Source: Arachidicoccus sp.
GTDB taxonomy: Bacteria > Bacteroidota > Bacteroidia > Chitinophagales > Chitinophagaceae
NCBI GenBank assembly: GCA_028283605.1
Contig: JAPWKH010000008.1
Coordinates: 124,001 to 188,000, forward strand
Direction of reading: 5' to 3'
Length of the DNA: 64,000 bases
The translations under genes were made by a program, and so were the position numbers. This document shows positions 3,748-40,016 of this stretch, one piece after another (the first letter of the stretch is position 1; the number at the start of each line of letters is the position of its first letter). Below the pieces are notes generated by a model. The model saw nothing but the letters and a program-made list of their open reading frames with translations. It did no database searches and was not told the DNA's origin.

Positions 3748-6700
3748 TTATGCATCTTTACCGTGGCAGTTCTTGTATTTCTTTCCGCTGCCGCAAGGAC
3801 AAGGATCGTTGCGCCCCACTTTCGGGCCTACAACAACCGGCTGTTGCTTCACGGGTGTAGGATCGTAATAATCGTTTTCGTTTGCCGCATAATCATTTCC
3901 TGCTGCATCTATTTCGTCTTTATTCTCACGCATGCGGCTCATGTCCGTTCTGCCGGTGCGCTTCGCTTCCTGTACTTGACCGTTTTGCTGCGCCTCTACA
4001 GGAATCTGAGAATGAGTAAGGAAAGTAACAATTTCTACATTCACTTCACGATTCATCTTTGCAAATAAGCCGAACGCTTCCTGCTTGTAAATGACCAACG
4101 GATCTTTTTGCTCATACTGTACAGTGCGTACACTTTGCTTTAAATCGTCCATCGCGCGTAAATGTTCTTTCCACGCATCGTCGATAAAACCAAGCATTAA
4201 TGTTTTTTCCAAAGCATTTACCAATTCAATTCCTCCGGTATCCAAAGTTTTTTGCATGTTTGCTACAACTTGCAATGCTTTGCGCCCGTCTGCAAAAGGT
4301 ACTACTACGTTTTCAATATGTGCACCTTGTACCTGACGGATATTTTGGAAAACAGGCAATGCATTTTTAGCAATTTCTTCCTTATGTTTTTGATAATTTT
4401 CGGAAGTTTCGTTGTATAATTTTTCTGCTAATTGCGGTACGTTATTCTTCTGAAACTCGTCTTCCGTAATTTTTGTATCTAATGCCAGATGAACAATACA
4501 GTTCAACTTAAAATTTTCGTAATCGTTTATTTCTTTATGATTGGCAACAATAGATTCTGCAACAGAATAAAACGCATTATCAATATCCAAAGCCAAACGT
4601 TCTCCGAACAAAGCATGATTTCTTTTTGTATAAATCACAGTGCGTTGTTTGTTCATCACATCATCGTATTCAAGCAAATGCTTACGAATACCGAAGTTGT
4701 TTTCTTCCACTTTCTTTTGCGCACGCTCAATAGATTTGGTAATCATACCGCTTTCGATAGCTTCGCCTTCTTTATAACCGGCAAAACTCATCACTTTAGC
4801 GATGCGCTCGCTGCCGAACATACGCATCAAATCATCTTCCAAAGAAACATAGAAAAGCGAAGAACCGGGATCTCCCTGACGCCCGGCACGGCCACGCAAC
4901 TGCAAATCCACGCGGCGGCTGTCGTGCCTTTCCGTACCGATGATAGCCAAACCGCCTGCGTCTTTTACGCCTTCGCCTAATTTAATATCCGTACCGCGTC
5001 CGGCCATATTTGTTGCAATCGTAACCGCACCTCTCAAACCAGCTTCCGCAACCACCTGCGCTTCTCTGGCATGCTGCTTTGCGTTTAATACATTGTGCGG
5101 AATTTGTTTTTGGCGCAACATGCGGCTAAGCAATTCGCTGATTTCCACAGAAGTTGTCCCTACTAAAACAGGCCGGCCGGCATTGCGGTATTCTTCAATT
5201 TTATTGATAACAGCGCCGTATTTTTCACGTTTGGTTTTATATACCAAATCGTGCTGATCCTGGCGTGTAACCGGCACATTTGTAGGAATGTTTACAACAT
5301 CTAATTTATATATCTGCCAGAACTCTGCAGCTTCAGTTTCTGCAGTTCCCGTCATACCGCAAAGTTTGTGGTACATACGGAAATAATTTTGCAAAGTAAC
5401 CGTTGCATAAGTTTGTGTGGAAGCCTCTATTTTTACATTTTCTTTCGCTTCCAAAGCCTGATGCAATCCGTCGGAATATCGGCGGCCTTCCATAATACGG
5501 CCGGTTTGTTCGTCTACTATTTTTACCTGTCCGTCAATTACCACATATTCATCATCGCGGTCAAACAAAGTATAGGCTTTGAGCAATTGCTGAACAGTAT
5601 GAATACGTTCCGTCTTAGCGCTGTATTCATTAAAAAGCTTTTCTTTCAATTCCAGTTTTTCTTCTGGAGAAAGCGTATCGTCTTTATCTACTTTTGCCAG
5701 ATTAGTAGCAATATCCGGCAGAACGAAGAAATCCGGGTCTTCGTTCATTCCCGTAATAGTTTTAATTCCTTTATCTGTTAAATCTACCTGATTATTTTTT
5801 TCATCTATATAAAAAAGCAATTCGGCATCAGCTTTCGGCATTTCGCGTTGTTGGTCTGCCAAGTGATGATTTTCTATTTTTTGGAGAATCTGCCGCATGC
5901 CCGGCTCGCTCAAAAATTTAATCAGACTACCGGTTTTCGGCATACCGCGATGTGCACGAAAAAGCGCTAAGCCCCCACCGCCTTCTTTGGCATCATCATT
6001 GCCTTCGGCAATTTTCTTTTTGGCTTCTACAAGAAAGTTGTTTACCAATTGTTTTTGCTTGGCAACAAGTGAAGCTACTCTGTCTTTAAATTCAAAAAAC
6101 AACTGTGTGGACGTGTCTTTTCCTACCGGGCCGGAAATGATCAATGGCGTACGCGCATCGTCGATCAACACGCTGTCCACTTCATCGACCATTGCGTAAT
6201 GATGTTTGCGCTGCACCATTTCCTCAGGCGAATGCACCATATTATCGCGGAGATAATCAAAACCAAATTCATTATTGGTTCCGTAAGTAATATCGGCAAG
6301 ATAAGCGTTGCGGCGAGCAGGCGAATTGGGCTGATGCTTATCAATACAATCAACTTTCAAACCAAGCCATTCGTATATCGGGCCATTCCATTCGCTGTCG
6401 CGACGAGCCAAATAATCGTTTACCGTAACGATATGAACGCCTTCGCCGGCAAGTGCATTTAAGTATGCGGGCAAAGTAGAAACGAGCGTTTTACCTTCAC
6501 CGGTTGCCATTTCGGCAATTTTTCCCTGATGCAACACGATACCGCCTATCAACTGCACATCGTAATGCAACATGCTCCAGGAAACCTTCATTCCGGCTGC
6601 TTCCCAGGCAGTATTGTAAGTAACGGTTTCACCATCTACAAGGATATAATTTTTCTTAACGGCCAGTTCCCGATCAAGATCGGTCACTTTGGAAATAATC

Positions 6701-18205: not shown

Positions 18206-18318
18206 TTTGCAAATTTACAAAAAAATAATGTGGAAAATATTGAGTATGCTTTGTAAAATGAAGCCATATATATACATCAAAAGGAATCAAATTTTTTTAA
18301 AATAAAATAGTCTACAAA

Positions 18319-18350
18319 TTTGGTAGAATTAATGCTGTTAATTATTTTTG
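18319..18350 (+). promoter_or_regulatory. Promoter of the SusCD-sulfatase leader
   Basis: TTTG (18319-18322) and TATTTTTG (18343-18350) are separated by exactly 20 bases, an excellent fit to the Bacteroidota -33/-7 promoter. Transcription should begin near 18354, about 16 bases before the polycysteine uORF and about 250 bases before susC. The long untranslated region left of susC is therefore transcribed leader. Confidence 0.7.
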
Positions 18351-18369
18351 CAATCTGTTAATCATATAT

Positions 18370-18441
18370 ATGATGCGAATAACAAAAATATCTCGTCCTT
18401 TAATGTCTTCAATTTTTGAATATTGTTGCTGTTGTTGTTAG
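18370..18441 (+). CDS. Polycysteine leader peptide (uORF)
   Basis: A 23-codon frame starts with two ATGs and encodes Met-Met-Arg-Ile-Thr-Lys, a middle containing Ser-Arg-Pro-Leu-Met-Ser-Ser-Ile-Phe-Glu-Tyr, then five successive Cys codons (TGT TGC TGT TGT TGT) and TAG. It sits about 16 bases after a strong promoter and 161 bases before the susC start, where a leader-peptide attenuator would be expected. The genes downstream include two sulfatases, so cysteine is a meaningful signal for sulfur limitation. Cysteine-codon-rich uORFs acting as cysteine-responsive attenuators have been reported in mycobacteria; a Bacteroidota counterpart is my inference. The run could be a chance repeat of TGT, but promoter, position and downstream function all argue against that. 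Confidence 0.7.
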   Translation: MMRITKISRPLMSSIFEYCCCCC

Positions 18442-18551
18442 TAGTGAGGCAATTGCAGAGCAATCTTACAATCATTTTACTTAACTCAATTTATTTCTGA
18501 ATGACTCAAAAGAAACTTTGCCCTTTGGGCTGCTAAGATTAATATAAAAAA

Positions 18552-18580
18552 GCCGGAAACTGTTGCAGCAGTTTTCCGGC
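18552..18580 (-). terminator. Strong hairpin in the susC leader, terminator-like on the minus strand
   Basis: GCCGGAAACTG (18552-18562) pairs with CAGTTTTCCGGC (18569-18580) with one bulged base and a six-base loop. On the minus strand the stem is followed by TTTTTTATA, a textbook intrinsic terminator; on the plus strand no T run follows. No minus-strand gene lies just to the right. It either stops antisense transcription toward lipB or acts as a structural element of the sense leader near the susC start at 18603. Confidence 0.65.
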
Positions 18581-18602
18581 GGGATATAAACAAAGATTTT
18601 CC

Positions 18603-21600
18603 GTGAAAGAAAAAAGCTACCGAAAATATCGGGAGCATTCCATTATTCATATCAAAACAAAATTAATGAAATTAGCTTTAAAGGCATGTATTTTATACAG
18701 CATATTAATATATCCTTTTTATTTATTTGCACAAGTAAATCAAGCGCCGCCGGCAAATATTCAAGCGGTTTTGCATGGAACTATTATAGATAGCGCAACC
18801 AAAGCGCCGGTTTCTGGAGCAACTATACAAATCATCGGTACAACGCATAGTGTCATTAGCAATAGTTTAGGAAAATTCGAATTTGTTACCGGGCAAAAAT
18901 TACCGTTTGAATTAAAAATTAGCTCGGTCGGATATAAAACAATTCAGATAGAAGTAACCAAAGATCATGTAGTAATTCCAATATCGGAAAATCAAAACAA
19001 CTTAAATGATGTTGTAGTTGTAGGATACGGTTCCCAGAAAAAGAGCGATGTTACAGGTTCCATAGCTACAGTTCCCACCGAAAATTTCAGCCGTCCGTCC
19101 ACATCGTTTGACAACCTGTTGCAAGGCGCGGTAGCCGGCGTGCAAGTAAGTCAAAGTTCAAGCCAGCCGGGTTCTACATCGACCGTAAGAATACGAGGAG
19201 GAAATTCGCTGAGTTTTGGTAATGATCCATTATATGTTATTGACGGATTTATTTATTACAACGATAATAACCTTACCAATCTTGCACCGCCCTCCGGAAC
19301 AAGCGTTACCGGCGCAACCAGCAATGCGTTATCAACTATTAACCCAAATGATATTGAATCTATCGACATTTTGAAAGATGCCTCTGCGACTGCCATTTAC
19401 GGATCGCGTGGTGCAAATGGAGTAGTTATTATCACAACTAAAAGAGGCGTGAGGGGAAGCAATAATGTAGAATACAGCGGTTATTATGGCTGGGGAAATG
19501 TAGCAAAGCAAGTTGGTGTGCTTAATGGGCCTCAATGGGCAAAATACTTTGACGATTTATATAATAACACACCTTCTATTCAGGGTGCGTTAGCGTCTAA
19601 TAAACATATCATTGACTCTTTAGGCGCAGCAGGTGTAAATAACGATTGGGCAAATGCTGCCCTCAGAACAAGCCGGGTACAAAATCATGAATTATCTATT
19701 TATGGCGGAGATGATAAATCTAAATACGCCATTTCCGGCAATTATTTTCATCAGATAGGCGGTGTGCTGAATACAGATTTTACAAGGTATTCCGCAAGAT
19801 TTAATTATGAAAGAAATGTATCGACTAAGCTAAAAGTTACCACAAGCATTTACGGAAGCAACTCTGTAGAAAACAAACTTACAGGAAGCTCTTACAATGC
19901 CATCAATTCTTCCAACTCATATTCGGCGTTATATAGTGTGGTTCCCTTGCAAAATATCTATAATGCAGATGGTACATACAACACAACATATCAACCGGCT
20001 GTTTCGAGTACATCCAATACCATTAACGGGCAATTATTTTCAGACAATCAGATACTGGACATTGCCAGTACAAAGAATCAGTCAAATATTACCAGAGTAT
20101 TGGGAAATATAGCCGGGGAATATAAAATCTTGAAAGAGCTTACATTCAAAACAACATTCGGGGCTGATATTATCAGCACTAAGCTGAATTATTATGCGCC
20201 ATCCTATACAAGTGCAGGCAACGGATCAGGCAGTACAACAGGTTATGGTTCTGTGGGCAATATTTCTTATCTCAGTTGGCTGAATGAAAATACATTGACT
20301 TATACACATACATTCAGTAATAACCATTTTTTAGATGTTCTTGCAGGCTATACAACACAATATCAGCATGCTGAAAATTCTTTTGCGGCGGCTGCCTCTT
20401 TCCCGTCTGACTATACTTCGTACGAATATTTATATTCAGGATCGGCTCGTCAGGTAACAGGAAGCGGAGAATCGCAAACTGTATTTAATTCATGGTTAGG
20501 CAGAATCAATTATTCTTACAAACATCTTTATAATTTAACCTTATCCGGCAGAGCCGATGGCGCATCTGCAGCAGGCGCCAATCACAAATGGGGTTTCTTT
20601 CCAGCCGTTGGCGTGTCATGGAATGCTTCGCAGGAAAGTTTCTTTGATAAATTCAAAAATGTTGTAAGCAATCTAAAGTTGCGTTTTTCTACAGGCACAA
20701 TCGGCAACGCAAATTTCCCTGCATTCAGCTCATTGGCAACAATCAATACATCGGGTTATTATTTCGGAAGTCCGATAAGCGCTGTTAATGGCTTATCACA
20801 ATCGCAATTAAGCAATCCGGACTTAACTTGGGAAAGCACTACACAATATGATCTGGGACTTGATGCAGGATTCGTTCAAAACCGTATCAATCTTACGGCA
20901 GATGTTTACTTAAAAAAGACAACCCACTTGTTTGTTAATACAAGCGGATTAATTCCATTATCTACCGGTTACGCATCCGCCGCCGAAAATATCGGAAGTA
21001 TTCAAAACAAGGGATTGGAATTGACATTAACAACAGTCAATATCAAATCAAAAGACTTCAGTTGGAAATCAACAATTCTTTATGCAACGAATATCAATAA
21101 GATATTAAACCTTGGGCCAAGTTCATCTTTTCAGCCGATAGCGCAAACGGGTCAAGTGTCGCCGGTTATCGTAAAAGTAGGATTACCGGTAGGAACTTTC
21201 TGGGGTTATAAAACAGACGGGTTATTAACGAGTGCAGATGTAAGCGGCAGCAATCCGGCGCCATTATTAACAGGCGTATCCCAGCAAGTGGGCGACCGCA
21301 AATATTTACACGCACCGGGTATTACAGGAGCAACAATTACCACAGCAGATAAACAAAACTTAGGAAGCGCGCAGCCGAAATTTACAGGAAGCTTTTCCAA
21401 CACGGTTACGTATAAAAACTTTGATCTGTCAATATTCTTACAAGGAACATACGGCAACAAAATATTCGACTTGCAGCAACAAAACTTAGACAAAACTACA
21501 ACCACAGGAAATGTATCTGCCGATCTGCTAAATAGATATGATGCGGTTTCCAATCCAAAAGGAACTTTCCCTAAGATAGTAAATGCGCCTGTAATGCAAA

Positions 21601-21869
21601 TGGAAGATACCTATATACATAACGGTTCTTATTTAAGATTACAAAATGTATCGCTTGGATATATTTTGCCTGCAACAGCTGCATCAAAATTATTGGCAAA
21701 GCAAATCAGAATATATTTTTCAGCGCAAAACCTATTCACAATAACGAAGTATCCGGGCTTAAATCCTGAAGCAAATTTCTTTGATCAAAATAATCTGCAA
21801 CCGGGAATTGATCTTGGTATATATCCAAATTTCAGAACGTATCAGGCAGGTGTTGATGTTACTTTTTAA
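18603..21869 (+). CDS. SusC/RagA-type TonB-linked outer-membrane protein (sulfatase locus)
   Basis: The 1088-residue receptor has a signal region ending Leu-Phe-Ala-Gln and a carboxypeptidase-regulatory-like domain (about 57-130). A plug domain follows, with Val-Val-Val-Gly-Tyr-Gly and Asp-Ala-Ser-Ala-Thr-Ala-Ile-Tyr-Gly-Ser-Arg-Gly-Ala-Asn-Gly-Val, and then a beta-barrel ending in Phe. It imports ligands captured with the SusD lipoprotein encoded next. The start is a GTG at 18603, giving a basic N-terminal extension seen in some SusC proteins. An ATG at 18666 would give a conventional signal peptide and is the main alternative. The following sulfatases suggest the ligand is a sulfated organic compound or oligosaccharide. 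A promoter, a uORF and a hairpin precede it. Confidence 0.93.
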   Translation: MKEKSYRKYREHSIIHIKTKLMKLALKACILYSILIYPFYLFAQVNQAPPANIQAVLHGTIIDSATKAPVSGATIQIIGTTHSVISNSLGKFEFVTGQKLPFELKISSVGYKTIQIEVTKDHVVIPISENQNNLNDVVVVGYGSQKKSDVTGSIATVPTENFSRPSTSFDNLLQGAVAGVQVSQSSSQPGSTSTVRIRGGNSLSFGNDPLYVIDGFIYYNDNNLTNLAPPSGTSVTGATSNALSTINPNDIESIDILKDASATAIYGSRGANGVVIITTKRGVRGSNNVEYSGYYGWGNVAKQVGVLNGPQWAKYFDDLYNNTPSIQGALASNKHIIDSLGAAGVNNDWANAALRTSRVQNHELSIYGGDDKSKYAISGNYFHQIGGVLNTDFTRYSARFNYERNVSTKLKVTTSIYGSNSVENKLTGSSYNAINSSNSYSALYSVVPLQNIYNADGTYNTTYQPAVSSTSNTINGQLFSDNQILDIASTKNQSNITRVLGNIAGEYKILKELTFKTTFGADIISTKLNYYAPSYTSAGNGSGSTTGYGSVGNISYLSWLNENTLTYTHTFSNNHFLDVLAGYTTQYQHAENSFAAAASFPSDYTSYEYLYSGSARQVTGSGESQTVFNSWLGRINYSYKHLYNLTLSGRADGASAAGANHKWGFFPAVGVSWNASQESFFDKFKNVVSNLKLRFSTGTIGNANFPAFSSLATINTSGYYFGSPISAVNGLSQSQLSNPDLTWESTTQYDLGLDAGFVQNRINLTADVYLKKTTHLFVNTSGLIPLSTGYASAAENIGSIQNKGLELTLTTVNIKSKDFSWKSTILYATNINKILNLGPSSSFQPIAQTGQVSPVIVKVGLPVGTFWGYKTDGLLTSADVSGSNPAPLLTGVSQQVGDRKYLHAPGITGATITTADKQNLGSAQPKFTGSFSNTVTYKNFDLSIFLQGTYGNKIFDLQQQNLDKTTTTGNVSADLLNRYDAVSNPKGTFPKIVNAPVMQMEDTYIHNGSYLRLQNVSLGYILPATAASKLLAKQIRIYFSAQNLFTITKYPGLNPEANFFDQNNLQPGIDLGIYPNFRTYQAGVDVTF

Positions 21870-21890: not shown

Positions 21891-23552
21891 ATGAAACCAA
21901 GTATAAAAACAGCAGGTATTTTTATTATTTTCACAGGAATATCGGTCTTTATTTTTTCATGTAAAAAACTTTCAGAAAATCCTCAGAGTAGCTTAACGCC
22001 GGATGAATTCTTCCAAACGCAAGCGGATGCTATTTCGGCTGTTACTTCCGTATACAGCACACTTGTAACTGATATCAATAATGATTTTCCAATTTACGGA
22101 AGAAATCTCAATTTGTTAATCGATAATACAAGTGATGAAGAACAGTATAGCCCTTCCAATACCAATCCTGATGTACGGGCATTAGGAACGGCAACGTATG
22201 TAAATACCAACGACCGGGTTCACAAAATATATGCACAATTATATTGGGGAATCGATAAAGCAAACCTCGCAATTGATGGTATTCAAACAATTCCTGATAA
22301 TCTGTTTACTAATTACAACAAAAATAATTTAATCAGAGAAGCCCGCTTTATACGCGCATTATATTACTTCAATCTCGTTCGCTTATTCGGCGGCGTACCG
22401 CTTGTATTGCATGATGCAAATACTATCGCAAATGCCAATAATCTTCCGTCGCGCACCTCAAAAGATTCGGTGTACCTGCAAATCATTGAAGACTTGGATT
22501 CTGCAACCAATTTACCGGCAACGCAAGCGGGCGCTAATACAGGAAGAGTTACTTCCGGTGCAGCTTATGCATTGCTTGGTAAAGTCTACGCAACGAAGCA
22601 TGATTGGGCCGATGCGGCAACGGCATTAAAAAAAGTAATCACCGTGGGCACAGCAGGATTATCCGGAACAGGAAATTACGGCTACGATTTATTCCCCAAA
22701 TATTCAGATATATTTCTGCCTGCATCAAAAAATGGTAAAGAACACATTTTTTCCGCGCAGTTCAACGCCAATATCGGCGGTGGTTTTACGGCAACCAGCA
22801 CCCTCAGTGGCTTTTCCTGGAGCAATGCTGCTTACCTTGCTGATGTTCCTTGGCCTTTAACTACGGACGCGAACGCATTGCCGGTTAAATTATTTAATAT
22901 CAATGACCAACGCAGAAGTGCTACATTCTACGATTCGTTGTTCAACTCTTCAACAAACGCATGGGTTAAATGGCCTTATTTTAACTACCTTAAATGGGTG
23001 GATTTAAGTGTAGGATTTACTTCCACATTGACGGGAAGCAGCCAAGCAAACGCTAAAGTAAATTTCCCGGTAATTCGCTACACCGATGTGCTGTTGCTGT
23101 ATGCAGAAGTATTAAATGAAATAAACAACGGGCCAACTGCCGAAGCGTATGCAGCCATCAATATTGTAAGGGCAAGAGCGTATGCGCCAATCACTTTATA
23201 CGATCCAAAAACTGTTTCTTTCAGCAGTTATAATTACAGTTCAAACGGAAATTATACTGACCACACTTTCGATCTTTCAGGATTAAATTATTTACAATTC
23301 AAAGATTCTGTATATGAAGAAAGAAACAGAGAATTGTTTTTTGAAGCCAATCGCTGGTTCGATTTAGTAAGGCGCGTGCCCGATGCCGAATATGCTTCAG
23401 GACAATTTTATTTGACCAAAGTACAGGCTCAATATGGCAATCCGAAAGCTTCAGCAAGTTTGAAAGACACACTATTCCCAATTCCATATACAGAAATACA
23501 ATTATATCAGGCAAGCGGAAAAACATATCCGCAAAATCCGGGTTGGGAATAA
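21891..23552 (+). CDS. SusD/RagB-family nutrient-binding lipoprotein (sulfatase locus)
   Basis: The 553-residue surface lipoprotein has its lipobox Cys at residue 24 (Ile-Phe-Ser-Cys). It has the SusD alpha-helical TPR-like N-terminal region (Glu-Ala-Arg-Phe-Ile-Arg-Ala-Leu-Tyr-Tyr-Phe-Asn-Leu-Val-Arg). Its C-terminal region includes Tyr-Glu-Glu-Arg-Asn-Arg-Glu-Leu-Phe-Phe-Glu-Ala-Asn-Arg-Trp-Phe-Asp-Leu. It binds substrate and closes over the SusC barrel. It follows susC by 21 bases, so the two are co-transcribed. Ligand specificity cannot be read directly. Confidence 0.93.
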   Translation: MKPSIKTAGIFIIFTGISVFIFSCKKLSENPQSSLTPDEFFQTQADAISAVTSVYSTLVTDINNDFPIYGRNLNLLIDNTSDEEQYSPSNTNPDVRALGTATYVNTNDRVHKIYAQLYWGIDKANLAIDGIQTIPDNLFTNYNKNNLIREARFIRALYYFNLVRLFGGVPLVLHDANTIANANNLPSRTSKDSVYLQIIEDLDSATNLPATQAGANTGRVTSGAAYALLGKVYATKHDWADAATALKKVITVGTAGLSGTGNYGYDLFPKYSDIFLPASKNGKEHIFSAQFNANIGGGFTATSTLSGFSWSNAAYLADVPWPLTTDANALPVKLFNINDQRRSATFYDSLFNSSTNAWVKWPYFNYLKWVDLSVGFTSTLTGSSQANAKVNFPVIRYTDVLLLYAEVLNEINNGPTAEAYAAINIVRARAYAPITLYDPKTVSFSSYNYSSNGNYTDHTFDLSGLNYLQFKDSVYEERNRELFFEANRWFDLVRRVPDAEYASGQFYLTKVQAQYGNPKASASLKDTLFPIPYTEIQLYQASGKTYPQNPGWE

Positions 23553-23734: not shown

Positions 23735-24826
23735 ATGGCACAGCAAAAACAAGCTTCACTAAACATTCGCAGAGATGCACTGATAAGCGTTGGTATCTAT
23801 CTCCTGCCTATTGTTTTAATGTTTATCGTATTTTCAATTACAGGCCAAAAACCTTGGTTAAAACCGGCAACGGAAAGTATCTCTTTCAAAGCCCCTAAAA
23901 TCATAGAAGATGTATTTAAAAATCTTCGCACATGGGGCTTGCCGGCAATTACGCTTGTATTGGGAATATTGGAATTTTCGTTTGGTTTATATGGAAAAAA
24001 ATGGACAAAAAATAATATTCTTACAGACGTTGCTTGCTATTTTCTCCCGCATGTAATAGTTCGCCCTGCAGTTGTTTTTTTTAGTTTAAAATTATTGCCT
24101 TTACTATTGCCCGCCCTGGCAAATAAATTTGAGTGGGTTCCTTTTTGGTGGGCATGTTTAATTATTGCAATTGCTGATGATCTTACGCAATACTGGTATC
24201 ACAGGTTGCATCATCAGGTAAGGTGGCTTTGGCGTTTTCATCGTACACACCACTCTGCACCATATATGGGCATGGCAATGGCGAGCAGACAAAATATAAT
24301 TTATACAATATTTTTCTCTCAAATTTATCTTACTGCAGCGCTTACTTATCTTGGATTGGGCTATGCTGCACTGTTTGTAGGCGGCGTTAAATCGCTGATA
24401 ACATTAGGCGCACATTCCAGCATTCCGTGGGACAAACCATTTTATAAATACAAAGCTTTACATCCTGTCGCATGGGTTTTGGAAAGATTGATTTCCACAC
24501 CGGCCACACACCATGCACATCATGCTGATACTGACGGAGACGGCGTTGGCCATTACAAGGGCAACTTCGGCAATATGTTTTTCTTGTGGGATATAATTTT
24601 CAGGACCGGTATTATAACACGGAAATATCCTCAGTCATTCGGTATTAAACATTATAAGGAAGAAGAATGGTATGCACAAGTCTTATGGCCAATTTTCAAA
24701 TCCAAAAAACCGGGTAGCGAATTATCGGCAAATGGTCCGGTAGTTGGTGGTGAAGAGTCTGAAGAAAAACACCTGCAACAAAATGAAAAGCTGTCTCAAC
24801 TACAGTCCGCATTTCAATTAAATTAA
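23735..24826 (+). CDS. Sterol desaturase/fatty acid hydroxylase superfamily membrane protein
   Basis: This 363-residue integral membrane protein has the histidine clusters of the non-haem di-iron hydroxylase superfamily: His-Arg-Leu-His-His, His-Arg-Thr-His-His, and Thr-His-His-Ala-His-His-Ala-Asp. Five hydrophobic segments surround them. Members oxidise or desaturate lipid-like substrates using O2. Its place between susD and two sulfatases suggests it modifies the hydrophobic product or substrate of desulfation, for example a sulfated lipid or sterol; this is inference. The last ~35 residues are hydrophilic and Gln/Glu-rich. Confidence 0.85.
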   Translation: MAQQKQASLNIRRDALISVGIYLLPIVLMFIVFSITGQKPWLKPATESISFKAPKIIEDVFKNLRTWGLPAITLVLGILEFSFGLYGKKWTKNNILTDVACYFLPHVIVRPAVVFFSLKLLPLLLPALANKFEWVPFWWACLIIAIADDLTQYWYHRLHHQVRWLWRFHRTHHSAPYMGMAMASRQNIIYTIFFSQIYLTAALTYLGLGYAALFVGGVKSLITLGAHSSIPWDKPFYKYKALHPVAWVLERLISTPATHHAHHADTDGDGVGHYKGNFGNMFFLWDIIFRTGIITRKYPQSFGIKHYKEEEWYAQVLWPIFKSKKPGSELSANGPVVGGEESEEKHLQQNEKLSQLQSAFQLN

Positions 24827-24844
24827 AATTTAATCATTTATAAA

Positions 24845-26707
24845 ATGAAAATGAAAAATTGGTTTCTTCGCAAAACTGTGATTCTTGGGATAGGAGTCTT
24901 TTCTACAATACAGCTATTTTCACAATATACGCAACAACCTTTTCAAGGGACTATCGGTAAAACATTAAACGATTCCAAAGAATGGTGGGCACCGGTTCCA
25001 AAACCGCCGAAAGGCGCACCAAATGTGGTTCTGATAATCATCGATGATGAGGGATTCGGAACTTCAGGTGCGTTCGGAGGCCTCATTCATACACCTACAA
25101 TCGACAGCCTTGCCAACAATGGGTTGCGTTATACAAACTTCCACACGACTGCAATCTGCGCACCTACAAGATCAGCTTTATTAACGGGGCGAAACAGTGC
25201 TTTTGTTCACGAAGCAGGATTTTCTCATATTAGTATGTCAGCCGGATTTCCCGGATGGGACGGAAGAATTCCATCCAGTGACGGAACAATTGCAGAGATT
25301 CTAAAAGATAATGGATATAACACATTCGCCGTAGGTAAATATGGGTTAACGCCCGATGAAGAAGCTACCGATGCCGGTCCATTTGACCACTGGCCAAGCG
25401 GTAAAGGCTTTGAACATTTCTTCGGTTTTCTTGGTTCTGCTACTGATCAATATAAACCTGATTTAGTTGAAGATAATGCACATGTAGCGCCTGATGGAAG
25501 GCATTTAAATGAGCAAATAACCGATAAAGCAATTGCATATATCGCTCGTCAGCAAAAGAACGCGCCGGGTAAGCCATTTTTCCTGTACTATGCACCGGGC
25601 GCAACGCACGCACCGCATCAGGTAGATAAGTACTGGAGCGACCAGTACAAAGGAAAATTTGATGAAGGCTGGGATGTGTACAGGGAAAAGGTATTTGAAA
25701 ACCAAAAAAGATTAGGAATTATTCCGGCAAATGCAAAATTACCGGAAAGAAACTCACGTGTACAAGCCTGGAATTCTTTAAGTGCAGACCAAAAGAAACT
25801 ATTCGAGCGTTTCTTTGAAGTATATGCAGGCTATCTCACTTATACCGATTATCAAATCGGCAGACTAATAAATTATTTAAAAGAGAATAAATTATTGGAT
25901 AATACTTTGGTGTACGTTATTCTGGGAGATAATGGAGCAAGTAAAGAAGGCACCACTGAGGGTACAATTGAACCGAAAACAAACAATTCCAGAACACAGT
26001 CCGAAACAGATTATCTGAAAAAAAATCTGGAAGATATTGATTCAATCGGCACCGCAGCCGCACAAACCAATTATCCTTTAGGCTGGGCGCAAGCAGCGAA
26101 CACTCCTTTCAGAGAATGGAAAACCAACGCCGATGCAGAAGGCGGCACACACAATCCTTTAATTATTTTCTCTCCAAAATTAATTAAAGACAAAGGCGGT
26201 ATCAGAAACCAATACGGGCATGTAATTGACATTTTGCCTACAACTTTAGAGCTTATAGGAATCGAAAAACCCCAATATATAAAGAGTGTAAAGCAAGATA
26301 GTATCGAAGGAACATCATTGGCATATTCCATCAGCGATGCAAGTGCAGCTTCTCGCCACAAAGTGCAGTATTACTATATTTTCGGCAACAGGTCTATCTA
26401 CTACGATGGCTGGAAGGCAGAAGCAGCGCACCGTCCGGATAATGTAGATTTTAATTTTATTGGCAATAATCTTCCAATGGATAAAAGTTTTGATGAGGAC
26501 GACTGGCAATTATACAATCTAAAAGATGATCCGACTGAAACAAATAATCTTGCCAAAAAAATTCCTGAAAAGCTGGAAGAGTTGAAAAAACTGTTTGATG
26601 AACAGGCCAAAGAAAATCACTTATATCCGTTGATAGATTGGTATGATGTAAATACTAAAAGCGTTCATCATCCGAATGGAAGCGATACGCAAGGCCCGAT
26701 CAAATAG
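24845..26707 (+). CDS. Sulfatase 1 (arylsulfatase type, S1 family)
   Basis: The 620-residue secreted enzyme hydrolyses sulfate esters. It has a signal peptide (about 1-27, ending Phe-Ser-Gln) and the metal-binding Ile-Ile-Asp-Asp at 65-68. The sulfatase signature Cys-Ala-Pro-Thr-Arg-Ser-Ala-Leu-Leu-Thr-Gly-Arg begins at Cys105, which would be converted to formylglycine. His residues are in Tyr-Ala-Pro-Gly-Ala-Thr-His-Ala-Pro-His, and there is a second metal Asp-Asn in Gly-Asp-Asn-Gly-Ala. The overall layout resembles the arylsulfatase (Pseudomonas AtsA-like) group. No formylglycine-generating enzyme is in this window, so maturation must rely on a gene elsewhere. It is about 19 bases after the hydroxylase gene. 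Confidence 0.93.
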   Translation: MKMKNWFLRKTVILGIGVFSTIQLFSQYTQQPFQGTIGKTLNDSKEWWAPVPKPPKGAPNVVLIIIDDEGFGTSGAFGGLIHTPTIDSLANNGLRYTNFHTTAICAPTRSALLTGRNSAFVHEAGFSHISMSAGFPGWDGRIPSSDGTIAEILKDNGYNTFAVGKYGLTPDEEATDAGPFDHWPSGKGFEHFFGFLGSATDQYKPDLVEDNAHVAPDGRHLNEQITDKAIAYIARQQKNAPGKPFFLYYAPGATHAPHQVDKYWSDQYKGKFDEGWDVYREKVFENQKRLGIIPANAKLPERNSRVQAWNSLSADQKKLFERFFEVYAGYLTYTDYQIGRLINYLKENKLLDNTLVYVILGDNGASKEGTTEGTIEPKTNNSRTQSETDYLKKNLEDIDSIGTAAAQTNYPLGWAQAANTPFREWKTNADAEGGTHNPLIIFSPKLIKDKGGIRNQYGHVIDILPTTLELIGIEKPQYIKSVKQDSIEGTSLAYSISDASAASRHKVQYYYIFGNRSIYYDGWKAEAAHRPDNVDFNFIGNNLPMDKSFDEDDWQLYNLKDDPTETNNLAKKIPEKLEELKKLFDEQAKENHLYPLIDWYDVNTKSVHHPNGSDTQGPIK

Positions 26708-26742: not shown

Positions 26743-28575
26743 ATGAAAACTAAACATACAAAGTATCGTAAAGCGATTGTAACAAGTGCGATTGCATTTA
26801 TTGCGTTATCTTCTACGGCACAAATAAATAATACCGCTCAAGCTGTAATTGGTAACACCTTCGCAGACTCGAAAGAATACTGGGCTGCAAGACCAAAAGC
26901 GCCTCAAGGGGCATCCAATATCATCTGGATTTTATTGGATGACGTAGGCTTTGGAGCAAGTGACGGATTTGGCGGATTAATTCCTACACCAAATTTTGGT
27001 TCGCTTGCCAACAACGGATTGCGATATACAAATTTTCATACTACCGGTATTTGCGCCCCTTCGCGGGCAGCCTTATTAACAGGGCGAAATTCAAGCCGTG
27101 TACATGAAGCCGGATTTTCACACGTTTGGGGAGCATTTGGCTTTCCGGGATGGGACGGAAGAATTCCATCCACGGCTGGCACCATTGCAGAAATTTTAAA
27201 AGCAAACGGCTATAATACATTTGGCACCGGAAAATGGGGATTAACGCCGGATCAGGACACTTCTGATGCAGGCCCTTTTGATTATTGGCCAAACAGTAAA
27301 GGGTTCGAACATTATTTCGGATTTTTATATTCGCAAGACGATCAGTACAAAACACATTTGTTTGAAGACAATGCAAATATTAAACCCGACGGCAGGCATT
27401 TTAGCGAACAGATAACTGACAAAGCCATCAGCTATATTGATAAACAACAAAACGCTAACTCCGGTAAACCCTTTTTCTTGTATTATGCGCCCGGCGCTAC
27501 ACACGCACCGCATCAAGTGCCGGATGAATGGCGCGATATTTATAAAGGAAAATTTGATAAAGGCTGGGATTGGTATCGAGAAGAAGCATTTAAAAGACAA
27601 AAGCAATTGGGCATAATACCCAAAGATGCTGTATTGCCGGCGCGCAACCCGAACATCAAAGCGTGGGATTCTTTATCGGTAGATGAAAAAAGATTATATG
27701 CACGTTTCTTTGAAGTATATGCAGCGTATCTTTCTTATACAGATCATGAAATAGGGAGATTGATTCAGCATTTAAAAGATAAAAATGTTTTGGATAATAC
27801 GCTGGTTGTTGTAATGATCGGAGATAATGGGGCAAGCAAAGAGGGCAATGATAATGGAATAGTAGATCAAAACATTATTGGCGGAAATACAAAAGGACCT
27901 CAAAGCTTAGCTTATAATTTAGCTCATATCAATGACATAGGCAAGCCGGAAGGCACACAAGTAAATTATCCGTTGGGCTGGGCGCAGGCTGCCAATGCGC
28001 CTTTCCGTTTTTGGAAATCAGATGCTAACGCAGAAGGCGGAACCCGCAATCCTTTGATAATATATTTCCCCCAAAGAATTAAATCTACAGGCATTCGCAA
28101 TCAATACGCCCACATCATAGATATATTGCCTACTACATTAGAAATTGCAGGCATACATGCTCCCGAAAAAATCGGCGGCATAGCACAAGATACTATTCAA
28201 GGCACTTCATTGGTCTATAGCTTTGAAAATCCAGGAGCGCCGTCGCGGCATACTGTACAGTATTATTATATCTACGGTTCGCGCGCTATTTATAAAGACG
28301 GATGGAAAGCCAGTTTTGCTTTTGAAACCAAGTCGCCTTTCTTAATCAATAATTATAGTGTTGAAAGTCCGGGACATAACGATTGGCAACTTTATAATGT
28401 AGATAAAGATTATACAGAAAGAATAGATCTCGCAAAAAAATATCCGGAAAAACTTACAGAGCTAAAAGCTTTGTTCGATGAGGAAGCTAAGCGTAATAAT
28501 TTATATCCGCTTATTACCTGGGATGATGTAATTCAACAAGGAATAAAAGTTATGAAATCGCAAAATAAAAAGTAG
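26743..28575 (+). CDS. Sulfatase 2 (tandem paralogue of sulfatase 1)
   Basis: The 610-residue secreted sulfatase has the same architecture as its upstream neighbour: signal peptide (about 1-26), metal residues Leu-Leu-Asp-Asp at 64-67, and the Cys-Ala-Pro-Ser-Arg-Ala-Ala-Leu-Leu-Thr-Gly-Arg signature from Cys104. Large blocks are shared, for instance the regions around Asn-Asn-Gly-Leu-Arg-Tyr-Thr-Asn-Phe-His and Trp-Asp-Gly-Arg-Ile-Pro-Ser, showing an old tandem duplication. Differences are concentrated in the C-terminal subdomain, so substrate range may differ. It runs two bases before the DUF1254 gene. Confidence 0.93.
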   Translation: MKTKHTKYRKAIVTSAIAFIALSSTAQINNTAQAVIGNTFADSKEYWAARPKAPQGASNIIWILLDDVGFGASDGFGGLIPTPNFGSLANNGLRYTNFHTTGICAPSRAALLTGRNSSRVHEAGFSHVWGAFGFPGWDGRIPSTAGTIAEILKANGYNTFGTGKWGLTPDQDTSDAGPFDYWPNSKGFEHYFGFLYSQDDQYKTHLFEDNANIKPDGRHFSEQITDKAISYIDKQQNANSGKPFFLYYAPGATHAPHQVPDEWRDIYKGKFDKGWDWYREEAFKRQKQLGIIPKDAVLPARNPNIKAWDSLSVDEKRLYARFFEVYAAYLSYTDHEIGRLIQHLKDKNVLDNTLVVVMIGDNGASKEGNDNGIVDQNIIGGNTKGPQSLAYNLAHINDIGKPEGTQVNYPLGWAQAANAPFRFWKSDANAEGGTRNPLIIYFPQRIKSTGIRNQYAHIIDILPTTLEIAGIHAPEKIGGIAQDTIQGTSLVYSFENPGAPSRHTVQYYYIYGSRAIYKDGWKASFAFETKSPFLINNYSVESPGHNDWQLYNVDKDYTERIDLAKKYPEKLTELKALFDEEAKRNNLYPLITWDDVIQQGIKVMKSQNKK

Positions 28576-28577
28576 AG

Positions 28578-29979
28578 ATGAATCCTTTAAAGAAAGTTTT
28601 GACAATTGCCGGTTGTGGTATATTGCTACATGCAAATGCTCAGCAAGAAGTAAAAATTCATTTACCGAAAGATTCCGTACTTGCCATTGCCCGGGATGCT
28701 TATATTTACGCCGCTCCATTGGTTTATACGGACGCTACAAGACTAAAGTTATCTTCCGCAGACAACGTGTTTTTTCATCAGCGGTTTTTCCCGGACTATA
28801 CTTTTCGTGCAGTAGTAGCGCCAAATAATGATACCAATTATTCCATAGCATTTTTAGATTTAAGCAGTGACCCTGTAATTATAGAAACGCCGGATACAAA
28901 AGGAAGATATTTTGTAATTCCTTTTTTGGATGCATGGACGAATAATTTTGAATTGATCGGAAAAAGAACAACCGGCACAAAAGCACAAAATCTTTTTGTA
29001 TCCGGTCCAAACTGGAAAGGGAAAGTGCCCGAAGGATTCCGGCACATAAAATCGCCTACCAATTTAGTTTGGGTTATAGGAAGAATTCAGGTAAATAATA
29101 AAGAAGATCAAAAATCTGTAGTAAGCCCATTGCAAGATAAAATACGGCTGACCACTTTGGCTAAATGGCTTGTAAAAGATACATCTGCATTGCCACACGT
29201 GCAAAAGCAATATTACTCAATTACAAAAGATCAGTTTAAAAATGGGGTTGCACAAGGAATAAAAGCTTTGCCGATAGAAGAATTTTTCAATTATACAAAT
29301 GCTTTATTAGAAGACAATCCGCCGGCTGCATACGACGAAAAAATTGTGAAAGCAAATAGCGCAGATTAATGTTGGCAAAGGATTAAAATTTTCTCTTTCT
29401 GATTTTGATGAGGCCACAAAACTTGCACTTGATTCTTTAACCGGAAATATATATAAAGAATTGGATTCCGGTGGAATTACAGTAAATGCTGAAGAACAAA
29501 AAAAGCGTAGTATTATTTTAGGAAACTATGGCACAGATTACTATTATCGGACTTTGGTTGCCTATTATGGACTCGGCGCACTTCCTCCGCAAGAAGCAAT
29601 TTATATAGATTTAAAATCAGATGCTGCAAAACAGCAGCTTAACGGAAATTATAATTACATAATTCATTTCGATAAAGGGAGATTGCCTCCGGCAAAAGCC
29701 TTCTGGTCATTAACGGTTTATGATAAAGAAAGATATCTTTCAAAAAATGACATCAACCGTTACGCAATCGGAGACCGCGATAGCTTGAAATACAATGCCG
29801 ATGGCTCTTTGGATATTCATATCGGGCATCAAAAGCCGGGTGCTGCAAAAGTTTCAAATTGGTTACCCGCGCCTGCCGATCAATTCTATCTGATTTTTAG
29901 AATTTATGTGCCGAAAGAAAATTATGTCAAAAACCGTTCTGTATGGAAAAACCCTCAGCTACAGAAAATAACGGAGTGA
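28578..29979 (+). pseudogene. DUF1254/DUF1214 exported protein, split by a frameshift
   Basis: The first frame (28578-29369, 263 residues) has a signal peptide and a DUF1254 domain, with Ala-Pro-Asn-Asn-Asp-Thr-Asn-Tyr and Asp-Thr-Lys-Gly-Arg-Tyr. The next frame opens by about 29351 with Gln-Ile-Ala-Gln-Ile-Asn-Val-Gly-Lys-Gly and continues through a DUF1214 domain (Phe-Trp-Ser-Leu-Thr-Val-Tyr-Asp) to 29979. These two domains normally form one protein of about 450-470 residues. A single extra base near 29346-29352 explains the split. Function is poorly known; homologues are exported proteins often found with catabolic genes. It starts two bases after sulfatase 2 and is the last gene of the operon. 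Confidence 0.75.
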
Positions 29980-39544: not shown

Positions 39545-39617
39545 AATTCTTTTCTGCGCTTCGATTTGCTTGCCTTTCATAATTATTTTCCATAAAAATA
39601 TTCTTATATCTTCGCGT

Positions 39618-39800
39618 CAGATTAAGGTTTTTGCTTTTGCAAAATGAAAAGGGAAGTTGGTGAAAATCCAGCGCTATGCCCGTAGCCGTAACAGAGCCGT
39701 TTCATCGATGAATGAAACAAGTTGTTGAAGTTTTACCACTGTTTCGCTTTAAGAAATGGGAAGGTTTCAATAATGCTTCCAGCCGGAAGACCTGCCTTGA
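39618..39800 (+). promoter_or_regulatory. Cobalamin riboswitch
   Basis: The conserved cores are visible in order: AAAAGGGAAGTTGGTGAAAA, then ATCCAGCGC, then TGCCCGTAGCCGTAA, and a distal GGAAGACCTGCC close. These are the invariant adenosylcobalamin-type riboswitch elements. It precedes a BtuB-type receptor and a BtuG-like lipoprotein, so high B12 should switch these genes off. The expression platform probably lies at about 39800-40010. The remainder of the 470-base gap contains only this element and a plausible promoter with a TATCTTCG -7 box at 39607-39614. Confidence 0.9.
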
Positions 39801-40016
39801 TCCGATATTGTTTACCTGGCTTTCGGGATGAAAAGTTGAAGGGCGAATTGTTATATTTGTATTCATCTGTTTACTTTTTTAATTAGCAGATGGAATTCGC
39901 AAATAATCATTAAGAACAAAGTATATAAATGGTAATAAATTTACCAGACTCTTTGTTTCTATAAGTGAAATTTAAATTTGCTTACCTCTACCACCGGAAG
40001 CCGCTATTTATAAGGC

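Follow-up and report, generated by a model that had tools for sequence, protein, structure and literature searches.

A short upstream open reading frame (uORF) that ends in five Cys codons and a stop precedes a susC-susD-sulfatase operon of Arachidicoccus sp., and it is very likely, judging from its sequence and from those of related loci, a cysteine-responsive leader peptide that raises expression of the operon when Cys-tRNA is scarce. Positions are given in the window, by which we mean the whole 64,000-nt stretch analysed (GCA_028283605.1, contig JAPWKH010000008.1, 124,001-188,000 of the forward strand). The open reading frame (ORF), the promoter match in front of it, the conservation of the stop-proximal Cys run, the N-terminal drift of the peptide and the recurrence of such leaders before sulfur and cysteine genes are established by sequence comparison. 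From these features we infer that the uORF is transcribed and translated, that ribosomes may stall on it and that the response would have this sign, with low cysteine raising expression. Sensing of Cys-tRNA by stalled ribosomes is well supported and is the simplest reading, because the runs are kept as codons, vary in length and stand before cysteine and sulfur genes.

A preliminary description of this DNA had reported a -33/-7 promoter at 18319-18350 and, behind it, a 23-codon uORF at 18370-18441. Both are present: TTTG and TATTTTTG stand 20 nt apart, an arrangement that we take, from the consensus, to be a Bacteroidota-type promoter, and the uORF closes with its five Cys codons and a stop (Table 1). 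The -7 box ends 19 nt 5' of the uORF ATG. The 5' end of the mRNA is predicted to lie about 13-15 nt before the uORF, which would make it not leaderless, whereas the mycobacterial uORF is leaderless.

The same description had predicted that homologous leaders would keep the Cys run and drift elsewhere, and this is what relatives of the window susC reveal. With the SusC protein as query, 195 family genomes were searched, and we read the upstream regions of 30 of the 40 listed matches, the window included; the set takes in all 11 other matches with at least 52% identity. Nine of these 11 close relatives carry 3-6 Cys codons directly before a stop, no more than 600 nt upstream and always with an ATG in frame, where dinucleotide shuffles predict 0.02. 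Over 29 regions (at the remaining locus, L349, the upstream stretch spans only 199 nt and was not judged), such runs were observed at 12 loci, window included, against 0.04 by dinucleotide shuffles. At two loci of one genus, with 42-43% identity, the ORF ends in CCC; at the other susC loci that were read, no stop directly follows three or more Cys codons, and L350 has an internal CCC only. The N-termini of the peptides diverge between loci, except among species of one genus. A protein search of the 195 family genomes with the 23-aa window peptide returned, beyond the window, weak chance-like matches only, and homology of the peptide N-terminus was rejected on that ground.

Codon use within the runs bears on what is being conserved. 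Over 13 Cys runs from 13 loci there are 39 TGT and 15 TGC codons in mixed order, and run length is variable. Among ATG ORFs of the 29 upstream regions, an ending in three or more identical residues is found for Cys at 12 loci, for Leu at one and for no other residue. If the tract acted as an RNA or DNA repeat or structure and not through its codons, one might point to the TG-rich, repetitive make-up of the runs and to their predicted partial pairing. But the choice between TGT and TGC varies, as does the length, the frame is held to the stop, and the Leu case is the one other terminal run, all of which makes such a role very improbable.

Operon content was assigned by BLAST and motif at 20 susC loci, taken at up to 16 kb. 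At least one sulfatase is present in 11 of the 12 leader-bearing operons. Of the eight other loci, L378, L380 and L381 yielded no sulfatase by the same means, and L368, whose upstream region is not testable, is sulfatase-bearing. The association of leader and sulfatase follows the clade, so it is not independent evidence, and with 20 loci it is not separable from shared ancestry.

Poly-Cys leaders across Bacteroidota

A scan of prokaryote genome contigs for six Cys codons followed by TAA or TAG gave at least 118 stretches, 53 assigned to Bacteroidota and 65 to others. Stretches were counted as leader-like if they lie outside any ORF of at least 140 aa and have an ATG in frame, a rule that, among the matches listed, retains 29 of 53 in Bacteroidota versus 5 of 65 in the others; one of these five, L159 (phylum not given), precedes metY. 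Two Flavobacterium stretches were added, for a total of 31; their run overlaps an ORF, yet the gene behind it is the one that follows in relatives. Within the matches listed, 29 of the 31 precede a gene of one of eight classes: metY-type O-acetylhomoserine sulfhydrylase (9), cysS (7), PhyH dioxygenase in Flavobacterium (5), TonB receptors (3), sulfite reductase (2), and cysH, a pyridine-nucleotide reductase and OsmC (1 each). We sorted the genes into classes through BLAST comparison with proteins from these loci and the window; ten of the proteins were checked against Pfam. In L237, the leader-bearing receptor adjoins genes that look, by eye, like cysN, cysD and cysH.

The remaining two of the 31 matches listed are L218, with no gene in reach, and L194 (3200-3615), where two tandem ORFs, which share an acidic leader and have seven or eight Cys at the C terminus, resemble precursors of ribosomally synthesized and post-translationally modified peptides (RiPPs). 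By that resemblance, the peptide itself could be the product, as a RiPP precursor or a metal or thiol peptide. Members of the susC clade, however, share the Cys run while their N-termini drift, and for them we hold this to be a very unlikely account.

Promoter-like boxes accompany the leaders. In a set of 62 leaders from all classes, selected by us with L367 excluded and at least one locus entered twice (L149/L450), TANNTTYG -7 boxes precede 39 against 8.8 expected. By eye, GGAAATATAAA or a near variant lies just 5' of the Cys leaders L172, L210, L256, L230, L221 and L182; these serve metY, sulfite reductase, reductase and OsmC genes, and the element is possibly a shared promoter. Leaders ending in MRMC6-9 are found before PhyH-type dioxygenase genes in Flavobacterium and others (L154, L167, L191, L204, L244, L101, L103-L105), with a spacing of 51-55 nt to the gene in eight cases. 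Such a leader before its gene hints that this enzyme has a role related to sulfur. In L207, the interval from Cys leader to sulfite reductase gene (4027-4271) holds, by eye, a second Cys-rich short ORF; it also holds a terminator that has a possible antiterminator partner.

For cysS, loci were picked by protein and not by Cys pattern. A match is present in 144 of 147 genomes of the family, and 50 were examined, namely the 30 best matches and 20 of the 21 that follow them. A Cys-rich uORF lies within 260 nt upstream in 24 of the 50 (19 of the 30 most similar and 5 of the 20 further ones), which is not a fair prevalence because likeness to a leader-bearing cysS decided the ranking of the 30. The Cys cluster ends at the stop in 21 of the 24 uORFs, and the stop is 45-80 nt before cysS. 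In 12 of 14 cysS leaders, 4-10 nt separate the end of a -7 box from the uORF ATG, so few that the mRNAs may be leaderless or nearly so. The genome of the window encodes cysH, cysD and sulfite reductase, with cysD adjoining cysH. Upstream of this cysH lie a one-mismatch copy of the palindrome described below, a TATTTTTG box and a uORF encoding MKIFFQYNFLKAASSIRLHSCCYGAMCC-stop, which is Cys-rich and has no long run.

We also sampled shorter runs, taking 80 places of the family with four Cys codons followed by TAA or TAG, which are part of a longer list. ORFs of at least 140 aa contain 69 of these 80; of the 11 outside, seven have an ATG. Four-Cys leaders precede cysS (L301, L330) and susC (L300). 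Another Cys leader, MNNKSFYMTSAFTAVYYRCCCCC (L317:8001-8072, minus strand), has a similar promoter palindrome and stands before a gene that by eye is glutamate dehydrogenase-like and not an obvious sulfur gene.

Several observations weigh against a cysteine-responsive leader. The four-Cys runs are mostly noise, and L289, L310, L312 and L317 precede genes without an obvious sulfur role. The pattern (TGY)4TRR occurs once in the 3.59-Mb genome, in the 18424-18441 region, and the backward control pattern occurs once too; the run by itself is not significant, and it becomes so because homologous loci share it. Among the close relatives, L344 has a Cys-rich ORF without a run, and L348 ends in CCCCMCC with no in-frame ATG before the run, only TTG and GTG. 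Behind the CCCCMCC leader of L367 there is a hydroxylase and no sulfatase within the stretch examined, and L369, L372, L375 and L379 are sulfatase-bearing yet have no Cys run at a stop, although other Cys-rich uORFs are present in L372 and L375. This genome's own cysS has no Cys leader. Finally, a switching structure was sought by terminator search and by folding, and none was found.

One way to take such points would be chance, with TGY codons at the end of a short ORF by accident. The equal counts of the pattern and its control would fit, as would the predominance of four-Cys places inside longer ORFs. But the run seen in nine of the 11 close susC relatives, where 0.02 is expected, together with like leaders before cysS, metY and cysH, already refutes chance, which we consider extremely improbable.

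Readout of the leader

We propose a model where transcription would start a few nucleotides before the uORF and ribosomes would translate the uORF first. Under scarcity of Cys-tRNA, a ribosome would stall on the Cys codons at the end of the uORF. The stall would in turn raise expression of susC, susD and the sulfatases, allowing sulfate esters to be imported and cleaved for their sulfur.

Classical attenuators, such as those of trp, his and leu, have a short leader ORF in which codons for the amino acid that is sensed follow one another. The window leader has such a codon run in common with them, but no terminator/antiterminator switch was found in it, and its Cys run stands directly at the stop. 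If it were such an attenuator, a stall at Cys would flip a terminator and an antiterminator, with the hairpin at 18552-18580 as one arm. At L106 (siroheme synthesis), L207 (sulfite reductase) and L172, the stretch from Cys leader to gene does contain plus-strand terminator-like hairpins, and 6 of 21 cysS leaders have one against 0.5 expected, with the Cys codons in the stem in four of the six. In the window leader, however, the plus strand has no terminator-like site, and an intrinsic terminator there was rejected on this count of zero. The susC clade has such a hairpin in 1 of 13 leaders against 0.93 expected, and none was found on the plus strand of ten metY, five PhyH, three cysH or three receptor leaders.

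The hairpin named in the preliminary description as lying before susC (GCCGGAAACTG..CAGTTTTCCGGC, 18552-18580) is indeed present and GC-rich, in the spacer between uORF and susC; its supposed part in a switch is not supported. It is not a plus-strand terminator because the A6/T6 tract stands on the wrong side, and as an attenuator it is rejected since the T tract belongs to the other strand and a like hairpin occurs in L369, L375 and L040, which have no Cys run at a stop. A classical transcription attenuator is therefore unlikely for the susC operon, and the readout there, as far as these searches can tell, is probably not an intrinsic terminator. The other structure put forward earlier, a 7-base complement of AATCTTA (18462-18468) with TAAGATT (18534-18540), exists, but folding showed no clear switch.

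Translational attenuation in the mycobacterial style, where a ribosome stalled on the uORF would unpair the start of the next gene or deliver ribosomes to it, is somewhat easier to entertain, though still doubtful. The short, constant spacing of the cysS and PhyH leaders would suit it. In the window, by contrast, 224 nt separate the uORF from the susC ATG at 18666. Moreover, when 39 leaders were folded with the Cys codons occupied by a ribosome, pairing at the gene start did not change consistently, and sequestration of the start codon, relieved by a stalled ribosome, was set aside since no consistent effect appeared over the 39.

Our preferred guess, held tentatively, is that stalling at the stop-proximal Cys run would make the ribosome cover the start of the untranslated spacer and thereby block Rho loading; effects on translation or mRNA stability are the alternatives. 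At E. coli tnaC, a stalled ribosome blocks Rho loading. The 50 nt before cysS contain less G and more C where a leader is present (24 loci) than where none is (26 loci; C minus G, p ~1e-4, relatedness ignored), a composition that would suit Rho loading. Rho-dependent termination as in tna has also been proposed for actinobacterial cys operons, according to the available part of that study (PMC1262725).

Operon, palindrome and spacer hairpin

The features of the window locus are collected in Table 1. As described earlier, susC leads an operon with two sulfatases. Its start needs correction: the listed ORF begins at 18603 with GTG and the first in-frame ATG is 18666, followed by what by eye is a signal peptide. 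The DUF1254 and DUF1214 genes probably belong to the same operon. Viral contigs searched for SusD held no relative. At gathering score, Rfam has no match at the leader; the sole match in the window is a cobalamin riboswitch elsewhere, at 39608-39813 (97.7 bits).

Table 1. Features of the leader and operon, in window coordinates
Feature	Position	Strand	Basis or remark
15-bp palindrome CTACAAATTTGGTAG, overlapping the -33 element; candidate operator	18312..18326	.	sequence
Bacteroidota-type promoter (presumed): TTTG 18319-18322, 20 nt, TATTTTTG 18343-18350	18319..18350	+	sequence match
Leader ORF (uORF), 23 codons	18370..18441	+	encodes MMRITKISRPLMSSIFEYCCCCC-stop
Five consecutive Cys codons, next codon the stop TAG	18424..18438	+	sequence
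CCGG hairpin with A6 tract, on the minus strand a hairpin and T6; candidate antisense RNA terminator	18546..18580	-	
Candidate -7 box TAATTTTG of the antisense RNA	18658..18665	-	
SusC/RagA TonB-dependent receptor	18666..21869	+	Pfam Plug, NCBIfam TIGR04056
SusD	21891..23552	+	
Fatty-acid-hydroxylase superfamily protein	23735..24826	+	
Sulfatase, active-site motif CAPTRSALLTG (Cys-type)	24845..26707	+	
Sulfatase, active-site motif CAPSRAALLTG (Cys-type)	26743..28575	+	
DUF1254 and DUF1214 genes	28578..29979	+	gaps 2 and 91 nt

The palindrome that overlaps the -33 element is a candidate operator of a sulfur regulon. The only exact copy of CTACNAAWTTNGTAG in the genome is the one at 18312-18326. 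Copies with one mismatch occur at 12 further places in the whole genome versus 8 for a control; they are not rare as such and are moderately above control. Among them are copies before this genome's own cysH (L414) and before genes in L415 and L421 that by eye encode TonB receptors. A similar palindrome is seen by eye in several leaders of the susC clade.

For the spacer hairpin, the best guess is a DonS-like antisense RNA over the susC start, predicted to be about 105-110 nt long, with its terminator and -7 box spanning 18546-18665. An A tract with a CCGG...CCGG hairpin precedes susC at 11 of 15 loci of the clade, including L369 and L375, where no Cys run stands at a stop; L040, a more distant susC, has a similar hairpin. 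A minus-strand -7 box lies within 230 nt at 9 of the 11 hairpin loci against 2.5 expected. At 70-98 nt, a range set after the distances had been seen, the count is again 9 of 11, against 0.43 expected and with none of 2000 shuffles as high. Several of these boxes abut the ATG of susC, and the context of a start codon may thus explain some of the matching; for the antisense RNA, no -33 element was seen. A simple rule that counts other hairpins in, and for which no expectation was computed, places minus-strand terminator-like sites in 9 of 13 leaders. DonS-type antisense RNAs of Bacteroides susC genes measure 78-128 nt in the portion of PMC7366714 consulted. The candidate in the window is alike in its length and its place over the susC start, but it is a sequence prediction, comes from another family and lies beside a Cys leader.

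Known cysteine leaders and implications

Cys leader peptides have been predicted before cysteine genes of actinobacteria, where, in the available part of the source, the Cys run is near the stop and no terminator hairpin is conserved (PMC1262725). They were tested in Mycobacterium smegmatis by Canestrari et al. 2020, as related in passages of PMC9031893 and PMC13236596. In so far as these passages describe the actinobacterial leaders, those of Bacteroidota share with them the short uORF, the Cys run near the stop and the place upstream of cysteine and sulfur genes, and those of the susC clade also the absence of a conserved terminator, a likeness drawn without comparison of peptide sequences. 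They differ in phylum and in their targets, which include cysS, metY, sulfite reductase and an outer-membrane SusCD-sulfatase operon.

The uORFC-8-2 motif is described, in the portion of PMC8632094 consulted, as two tandem Cys codons, usually codons 14-15, with an intrinsic terminator, and for cysS of Rhodobacterales only. The leaders here have in common with it a uORF with tandem Cys codons before cysS; on the same partial source, it differs in its two Cys codons, its intrinsic terminator and its report from Rhodobacterales alone. Within Bacteroidota, leader-peptide attenuation has been noted upstream of amino-acid operons of Flavobacterium psychrophilum (PMC9723704), so that the principle was suspected in the phylum before, but the passage seen names no cysteine case. 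In the literature, of which our coverage is partial, we found no cysteine leader peptide in Bacteroidota. Within that limit, the window leader is the first Cys leader found for Bacteroidota and for a SusCD scavenging operon.

Beyond the single locus, these leaders may form an undescribed phylum-wide cysteine-attenuation regulon, a proposal that we regard as evenly balanced. It would comprise stop-proximal poly-Cys leaders at cysS, cysH, sulfite reductase, O-acetylhomoserine sulfhydrylase, siroheme synthesis and TonB/SusCD operons, stacked at the susC-sulfatase operon with a palindromic operator, which is also found before cysH, and with a DonS-like antisense RNA. Cys codons at a uORF stop would be a simple signature for sulfur-scavenging genes of unknown function, for example the Flavobacterium PhyH-type dioxygenase. 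The mechanism of Cys leaders that lack a terminator also becomes testable in a new group.

Control of biosynthesis by amino-acid leader peptides is textbook knowledge, and work on SusCD regulation usually deals with the response to glycans. A leader on an outer-membrane scavenging operon would link loci of the polysaccharide-utilisation type with sulfur status. If the proposal of such a regulon is true, ribosomes would meter the import of sulfated compounds by the charging of Cys-tRNA.

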